This document shows positions 24,446 to 25,119 of a stretch of DNA of 64,000 nt, piece after piece. Origin of the DNA: Pontibacter cellulosilyticus (GTDB lineage: Bacteria; Bacteroidota; Bacteroidia; Cytophagales; Hymenobacteraceae). The stretch is taken from contig NZ_JACRVF010000004.1 in the NCBI RefSeq assembly GCF_014306105.1, positions 430,389 through 494,388 on the forward strand. Direction: 5' to 3'. Under the pieces are notes generated by a model that saw only the letters and a list, made by a program, of their open reading frames with translations, made no database searches and had not been told where the DNA came from. Both the position numbers and the translations under genes were made by a program. Each line of letters begins with the position of its first letter. Position 1 is the stretch's first letter.

Positions 24446-24472
24446 ACGCTGAATGAGTGTTTGAATACGATT

Positions 24473-24551
24473 AACCCACCCCTAACCCCTCCGAGGAGGG
24501 GAACTTTCACATGCACGATATTCCCCTCCTCGGAGGGGCTAGGGGTGGGTT
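24473..24551. repeat. REP-like inverted repeat pair A/A' (left of DUF559 gene)
   Basis: Two 31-base arms, 24473-24503 and 24521-24551, are inverted copies with one mismatch (C at 24539) and a 17-base spacer. Each arm contains its own small hairpin core CCCCTCCGAGGAGGGG preceded by CCCACCCCTA. The right arm ends 10 bases before the DUF559 stop codon. The same arm sequence recurs at 24938 and 25061. Confidence 0.95.
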
Positions 24552-24561
24552 CTTACACCTG

Positions 24562-24924
24562 CTAATGCTTCATAACCCAAGCTTCTATTTCCCGAAGTAC
24601 GTTAGGCATATCCTGCTTCACCGCAGCATCCTCAAACCGCAGGAACTTAACTCCAAGATTTTCCAGCTCGCTTTGTCTAGCAACATCTTCTTCATACTTG
24701 TAATCGTGGCTGTCGCCGTCCACTTCTATAGCCAACATTAGCTCCTTACAGTAGAAGTCTACAATAAAATTGCCTAGCGGTTTCTGCCTATCAAAATCTA
24801 AACCGAGCAGTTTTTTGTTCTTAAGTTCATTCCAAAGCAGAGTTTCAGCAAGGGTGCTGTTCTGGCGGAGCTGTTTGGCTAGCTCTTTTAAGTATGGTTT
24901 ATACGGGATTATCCGGCGTTTCAT
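24562..24924 (-). CDS. DUF559 domain endonuclease-like protein (Vsr/PD-(D/E)xK-type)
   Basis: A 120-residue protein. The sequence LAETLLWNELKNKKL, FDRQKPLGNFIVDFYC and MLAIEVDGDSHDY is characteristic of DUF559, a small family related to very-short-patch-repair and other PD-(D/E)xK nucleases. Asp56 and Glu67 (with Asp69 and His73 nearby) are the likely metal-binding residues. Length is normal and no motif is missing. The gene is enclosed very tightly: the stop is 10 bases from repeat arm A' and the ATG is 13 bases from repeat arm B. No methylase, recombinase or transposase gene is adjacent. The nesting suggests that the gene and repeats belong together, possibly as a mobile or repeat-processing unit. 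Confidence 0.88.
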   Translation of the reverse strand: MKRRIIPYKPYLKELAKQLRQNSTLAETLLWNELKNKKLLGLDFDRQKPLGNFIVDFYCKELMLAIEVDGDSHDYKYEEDVARQSELENLGVKFLRFEDAAVKQDMPNVLREIEAWVMKH

Positions 24925-24937
24925 CTGCAGGTGATTG

Positions 24938-25092
24938 ACCCACCCCTAACCCCTCCGAGGAGGGGAATTGTTCCCTTACCAGTAGCCTATACCATTGATT
25001 TATAGGTCCGGTTAAATTGCTAACTATAAATGGATAAGTAGGAGTAAAGGCAAAAACTAAAATTCCCCTCCTCGGAGGGGTTAGGGGTGGGT
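24938..25092. repeat. REP-like inverted repeat pair B/B' (right of DUF559 gene)
   Basis: Arms 24938-24969 and 25061-25092 are perfect 32-base inverted copies separated by 91 bases. They have the same sequence and orientation as arms A/A' on the other side of the DUF559 gene. Similarity extends outward in three of four copies as CAGRTG, 4-5 bases, ACCCACC (seen beside A', B and B'). Confidence 0.95.
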
Positions 25093-25119
25093 TCTTGCAT
25101 CTGTGGAGCTATGAAAAAA

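Follow-up and report, generated by a model that had tools for sequence, protein, structure and literature searches.

A DUF559 nuclease gene within inverted hairpin repeats in Pontibacter cellulosilyticus, a probable REPtron-like unit

A 64,000-nucleotide stretch of the Pontibacter cellulosilyticus genome (contig NZ_JACRVF010000004.1, positions 430,389 to 494,388; hereafter the window) contains a gene for a 120-residue protein of the DUF559 family that lies among four copies of one hairpin-forming repeat. The unit recalls the repetitive extragenic palindromic (REP) sequences and their REP-associated tyrosine transposases (RAYTs), and we think it probable, with considerable room for doubt, that it is REPtron-like, i.e., a single-domain DUF559 nuclease of the Vsr/EDxHD fold together with a hairpin-repeat family of its own that the enzyme would recognize and spread. 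Behind this reading stand the units themselves, arms that are largely subfamily-specific, dispersed gene-less copies, the alternation of gene-bearing and gene-less copies at one site, and orthologous sites free of the unit.

The unit and its repeats in the window's own genome

The gene (24562 to 24924, minus strand) lies in a convergent intergenic region with GC-rich hairpins, the two convergent genes standing either side. The inner arms, at 24521 to 24551 (minus strand, on the gene's 3′ side) and 24938 to 24969 (plus strand, 5′ side), direct their tails, AGGGGTGGGT, at the gene, a tail-in arrangement common in the same subfamily. Each inner arm is also paired tail-out with an outer arm, at 24473 to 24503 (plus strand; 17 nt between; pair of 31 nt, 97% identity) and 25061 to 25092 (minus strand; 91 nt between; pair of 32 nt, 100% identity), respectively. 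The arm anatomy described in an earlier note on this DNA was borne out: the four arms around the gene, the hairpin core CCCCTCCGAGGAGGGG in all of them (24486 to 24501, 24523 to 24538, 24950 to 24965, and 25065 to 25080, converted from contig coordinates), the 10 and 13 bases between the gene and its inner arms, and CAGRTG outside three of the four arms (CAGGTG at 24556 to 24561, minus strand, and 24928 to 24933, plus strand; CAGATG at 25098 to 25103, minus strand). In the list of inverted-repeat pairs of the window, combinations of these arms take the first four places (31 to 35 nt, 97 to 100%), the next pair listed being 30 nt at 77% and the top percentage among the remaining pairs 92% over 24 nt. 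Folded as single-stranded DNA, the 79-nt tail-out pair (24473 to 24551) gave −36.9 kcal/mol (z −12.5). On inspection of the sequence, the window arms lack a GTAG tag. Rfam returned eight matches on 801 bases, every one under its gathering score and mainly to microRNA hairpin families, and no intron or intein was recognized at the locus, neither having been searched for beyond this Rfam run.

The gene product matches DUF559 in Pfam (PF04480, E 1.4e-30) and no other domain except MTES_1575, which fell under the cut-off; no HUH/Y1 transposase domain was found. An AlphaFold2 model (mean pLDDT 92, 43 aligned sequences) was matched by Foldseek to 3hrl (putative endonuclease-like protein, also the single PDB sequence match of the window protein), the homing endonuclease I-Bth0305I (3r3p_A; E 1e-4, TM 0.74 by target length), and 1vsr (E 0.03, probability 0.98). 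Judged by this predicted model, the nearest solved folds are Vsr-type nucleases. Residues E27, D56, E67, D69, and H73, candidate counterparts of the EDxHD catalytic residues, are invariant in the 43 sequences. The named relatives closest to the window protein are from Pontibacter, and the phage records gave no match to it.

Four DUF559 matches were found in the window's own genome, i.e., the window gene, L015, L017, and the weak L018. The three stand-alone genes each lie within a different inverted hairpin repeat, with arms of 61 nt (93%) at L015 and 38 nt (97%) at L017; for L018, no convincing pair was listed (best 86% over 14 nt, the longest at no more than 73%). A relaxed arm pattern occurs at 82 places in this genome versus 4 for the reversed control pattern, an abundance that exceeds chance. 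Sixty-four of these places form 32 tail-out pairs of neighbors no more than 700 bases apart, three of which belong to DUF559 units (two are the window's own and one is that of L015). The sole tail-in pair among the 82 places is that of the window gene, and besides this gene the only pair more than 240 bases apart encloses the L015 gene. The repeats are dispersed as doublets, as in RAYT systems. The earlier note had raised the prospect of repeat copies clustering near DUF559 genes; most copies are distant from such genes, as REPs are from RAYTs.

Six inspected gene-less copies of the D type span 201 to 229 bases from arm to arm and have their ends in common with L015, as judged by eye. The D-type L015 unit is itself adjoined by a gene-less C-type pair (CCCCCTTCAAAGGGGG; L015 positions 1931 to 1964 and 2049 to 2082), so that two repeat families are neighbors there.

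Bracketing of DUF559 genes in the genus and beyond

An open reading frame (ORF) was counted as bracketed when surrounded by an inverted repeat of score at least 15. The window protein had matches in 46 of 50 genomes of the genus, and these make up the genus census, with pieces merged and four matches excluded (three that are short fragments and one lying in a frame of 319 residues). Of its 133 DUF559 loci, 128 were bracketed, compared with 0 of 113 neighboring ORFs, a control that needs just 150 bases of flank per side and is somewhat less sensitive than the DUF559 test. A cross-locus flank control was high (156/660 at score 15), which we put down to repeat families common to the genomes. The absence of such brackets around neighboring ORFs bears on another explanation, that the arms act as transcription terminators or insulators flanking a host repair gene, co-inherited with it and immobile. 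The GC-richness of the hairpins and their place between convergent genes, one terminator-like match, and the presence of many units at the same site across species would all suit this explanation, as would the DNA-damage role of a DUF559 protein in Caulobacter (in passages of PMC12907096). The single terminator-like site, however, compares with 0.8 in shuffles, and the arms, for the most part peculiar to one subfamily, also occur dispersed without a gene; in view of all three points we consider it very improbable that the arms serve only in this capacity.

Bracketing extended to a mixed set of 113 loci that overlaps the genus census in part and from which eight were dropped (seven without a clean ORF, one at a contig edge). 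Here, 58 of 83 DUF559 ORFs shorter than 190 residues were bracketed, as were 1 of 22 DUF559 ORFs of at least 190 residues and 11 of 265 neighboring ORFs. Among 80 named loci, of which 13 were dropped, 42 of the 67 tested reached score 15: 8/8 in Pontibacter (3 of 11 dropped), 4/5 in Rufibacter and Botryobacter, 19/32 in other Bacteroidota (8 of 40 dropped), 6/11 in the Ignavibacteria/Chlorobi and similar group (2 of 13 dropped), 2/2 in Bacillota, 1/1 in Actinomycetota, 1/2 in Patescibacteria, 1/1 in Troglogloeales, and 0/1 in Cyanobacteria (score 14.5), the Acinetobacter loci being taken up below. A plasmid collection had 42 records with a match, 19 of which were examined, with 350-base flanks and without a neighbor control. 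Ten of the 19 loci reached score 15, namely those of Azospirillum lipoferum, Pseudanabaena, three Deinococcus, Neisseria gonorrhoeae (score 16), Sinorhizobium meliloti pSymB (score 104), Sphingomonas, Sphingobium, and Novosphingobium. The pSymB hairpin core recurs at 26 places (reversed control 0). Few records show repeat dispersal beyond the genus, the S. meliloti-type pattern being scarce in the seven other records searched with it (Azospirillum 4, Sphingomonas 1, five records 0). Overall, the pairing of DUF559 genes with repeats is well supported as general in the genus and as present in several phyla, though not everywhere.

Some of the plasmid DUF559 genes (L372, L374, L366, and L368) lie inside metabolic clusters according to the record annotation (paaD-paaZ, sufB-sufC, hpa). 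Two others, L370 and L371, are on Synechocystis plasmids, beside genes for DUF1156 and PglX (BREX-type methyltransferase).

The association was also seen in the reverse direction, from arms to gene. Tail-in AGGGGTGGGT and ACCCACCCCT spaced 370 to 400 bases apart occur at seven places in 6 of 390 genomes (reversed control 0), and all seven enclose a DUF559 gene, with 55 to 100% identity to the window protein; at a spacing of 250 to 280 bases, tail-in arms were found in 0 of the 390. This invariable enclosure speaks against a different explanation, in which another transposase, RAYT-like or other, acts in trans on elements that end in these arms and DUF559 is a passenger or repair helper. Every large DUF559 subfamily has arms, moreover, which would mean that the passenger had been captured repeatedly. 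In favor of a passenger role, the D-type gene-less copies, with their length and long terminal inverted repeats, resemble ordinary miniature inverted-repeat transposable elements (MITEs), and no genome-wide search for other transposases was made. On balance, we judge such a role to be quite unlikely.

Repeat families, copy number, and orthologous sites

The DUF559 subfamilies were delimited by protein identity, and the main ones each have a repeat family of their own, with a few exceptions. Read by eye, the arms are CCCCTCCTCGGAGGGG-TTAGGGGTGGGT in subfamily A1, CCCCTCTTGAGAGGGG-TTAGGGGTGTGT in A2, GTCCCCTTGAGGGGACTACAGGGGTGT in B, GTCCCCCTTTGAAGGGGGYAGGGGGATGA in C, GGTCCAACCACCCC..CCCCTCCTTGTCTAAGGMGGGG in D1, and CCTCCCCCTGCCCCCTCCTAAAAACAGGAGGGGG in D2. 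Arm similarity between nearest-protein neighbors was 0.872 versus 0.486 when permuted (sd 0.030, p 0.0002), and 0.780 versus 0.464 (sd 0.027, p 0.0002) between those at different sites. The arms were permuted within genomes only (5000 permutations, n=128, the five loci under score 15 being excluded), and the protein row and cluster of L017 in these tests carry no meaning, the query taken from it having been out of frame and having matched L017 alone. The result shows that the unit holds together and does not alone demonstrate arm recognition. In the five large subfamilies, 77 of 98 genome-by-subfamily cells hold one gene.

Across the 50 genus genomes, the A arm (at most one mismatch) is present in 0 to 88 copies per genome and the C arm in 0 to 57, with reversed controls of 0. 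Copy numbers were compared without phylogenetic correction, and G002, which has a C-type gene without detectable arms, was placed by hand in the C-gene set. A repeats had a median of 8.5 in the 14 genomes with an A1 gene versus 3 in the 36 without (p 0.010), and C repeats a median of 19.5 in the 18 genomes with a C gene versus 9.5 in the 32 without (p 0.008), while A repeats were unrelated to the presence of a C gene (p 0.64). The four DUF559-less genomes had A/C counts of 0/0, 0/0, 3/0, and 1/9.

At the window locus, the whole unit is missing from the orthologous intergenic region of the two relatives most similar there, G077 and G091. In G002 this place is taken by a decayed DUF559 unit in the opposite orientation, and some other relatives have gene-less pairs. 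The earlier note had looked to relatives for a clean empty site ending exactly at the arms; the unit is indeed missing in these two, and the sites are not base-exact because they are occupied by other repeats or diverged sequence. With most repeat copies also away from DUF559 genes, the refuting condition set by the note is answered only in part. In G077 (L160), the region orthologous to 24446 to 25111 has a different inverted pair, of the CATTTCGAACGCAGTGAGAAATCT type, in the place of the window unit; this pair has a putative resemblance to the CGTC-tagged REP type.

Elsewhere, the gene-bearing L305 of G077 is orthologous to the gene-less L043 of G000, the flanks being 85% and 76% identical in the alignment and the ends similar; in the G091 stretch examined for this site, the right flank is unaligned and a decayed DUF559 relic is present. 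Terminal inverted repeats are common to gene-bearing and gene-less copies both here, by alignment, and at L015, by eye. A D-type unit of G119, L326, is missing at the orthologous site of the window's own genome, which has a C-type arm instead. The 133 loci amount to 43 site groups if either flank is common or 70 if both flanks are required, and from these data we infer that the units move, but infrequently.

Beyond the arms of L326 and L333, similar terminator-like hairpins (e.g., GGAGAAGCTGTAATGGTTTCTCC) stand inverted on both sides. At this site, the window's own genome, without the unit, has one hairpin only.

A site whose similar ends enclose a gene in one genome and a gene-less interior in another, as at L305/L043, would also be expected of a homing-like selfish gene, in which case DUF559 would cut repeats spread by another enzyme and its gene would be copied by repair into the cut repeat, the repeats being its target and not its product. 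The match of the predicted model to I-Bth0305I (3r3p) points the same way, as does the part of PMC9403480 that assigns a DUF559 gene to the EDxHD homing family. Against this, the main subfamilies differ in their repeats, each having a family of its own, and A or C repeats are almost absent from three of the four DUF559-less genomes. Homing of this kind seems to us unlikely, if a possibility to be taken seriously.

A proposed mechanism and its place among known systems

In the REPtron-like reading, the nuclease would recognize the hairpin-plus-tail arm, perhaps extruded as a single-stranded hairpin or a cruciform, and would nick or break the DNA at the arm or beside it. Repair from another copy may then place the arm pair, or else the entire gene-bearing unit, at a site that is either new or already present, and gene-less tail-out pairs would be non-autonomous copies, like REPINs or MITEs. 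The REP/RAYT logic with a PD-(D/E)xK-type protein that the earlier note had suggested holds for the anatomy, given the genus-wide bracketing, the co-variation of subfamily and repeat, the dispersed gene-less copies, and the lack of the unit at the orthologous site in G077 and G091; that the enzyme is active as a nuclease, that it recognizes the arm, and that copying follows are inferred.

Several observations weigh against this reading. The best bracket of L264, L270, and L272 is the arm type of another subfamily, and gene-arm co-variation could reflect linkage in a unit inherited or moved whole. By eye, the six gene-less copies showed no obvious target duplication, and with many units orthologous between species, movement looks rare. 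Copy number increases only modestly when the cognate gene is present, in a weak and not fully specific manner: genomes with an A1 gene are also richer in C repeats (p 0.0097), and in G023 there are 33 A repeats yet no A-type gene among its two loci. Nine of the 19 plasmid-collection loci were under the threshold, and none of the four named Acinetobacter loci was bracketed. Genes of other kinds may have brackets as well, as did the 11 neighboring ORFs of the mixed set, whose top two scores (46 and 29) fell in Acinetobacter loci.

The comparison with REPs draws on parts of PMC3733652, PMC3116915, and PMC2817692. RAYTs are single-copy, and gene-less REP copies occur as inverted doublets (in passages of PMC3116915); REP/RAYT systems (REPtrons, REPINs) are alike in having a single gene flanked by inverted repeats plus gene-less inverted doublets. 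They differ in that the enzyme here is a DUF559 protein with a predicted Vsr-like fold, not HUH/Y1, that the arms have no GTAG, and that DUF559 units are seen in Bacteroidota plus several other phyla. TIRYT elements also have an enzyme gene within inverted repeats, some of which form a repeat family as well, but they are HUH tyrosine transposases, and CGTC-tagged REPs are likewise dispersed palindromes, without associated transposase genes and found in Bacteroidetes among other phyla, but of a sequence type different from the arms described here (both in sections of PMC3733652). The EDxHD homing endonuclease I-Bth0305I is similar in its catalytic-domain fold, by the 3r3p match of the predicted model; the context seems different here, the DUF559 gene standing amid hairpin repeats in the gap between two convergent genes. 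Vsr is alike in fold by the 1vsr match of the same model. Caulobacter VsrA carries DUF559, but the passages of PMC12907096 that describe it give no repeat association, and neither "inverted repeat" nor "palindrom" occurs in the paper. In Legionella, repeated segments that carry a transposase and DUF559 are reported to be recombination hotspots (PMC12308824). In the passages concerned, PMC12907096, PMC9403480, PMC12308824, and PMC9845703 make no link between DUF559 and flanking hairpin repeats. The searches made of an open-access library gave no report of a DUF559-repeat association, and none of its papers combined DUF559 with "inverted repeat."

No enzymes other than those of the RAYT-type HUH kind are known to be linked to the spreading of REP palindromes. 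At least one large class of REPs is reported to lack a transposase partner (PMC3733652). Whether DUF559/EDxHD nucleases form a second REP-spreading class, unrelated to RAYTs, distributed over several phyla, and moving by cut-and-repair and not as Y1 or DDE transposases, is a question on which we find the scales evenly poised. If they do, DUF559 enzymes may account for many GC-rich dispersed hairpin repeats without a known enzyme, and the minimal mobile unit would be one 120-residue nuclease plus hairpin ends. With a specific enzyme-repeat pairing across several phyla, a common "domain of unknown function" would gain a function and a large class of dispersed repeats would be explained, and a mobile-element mechanism that uses a Vsr-like nuclease would perhaps be added.
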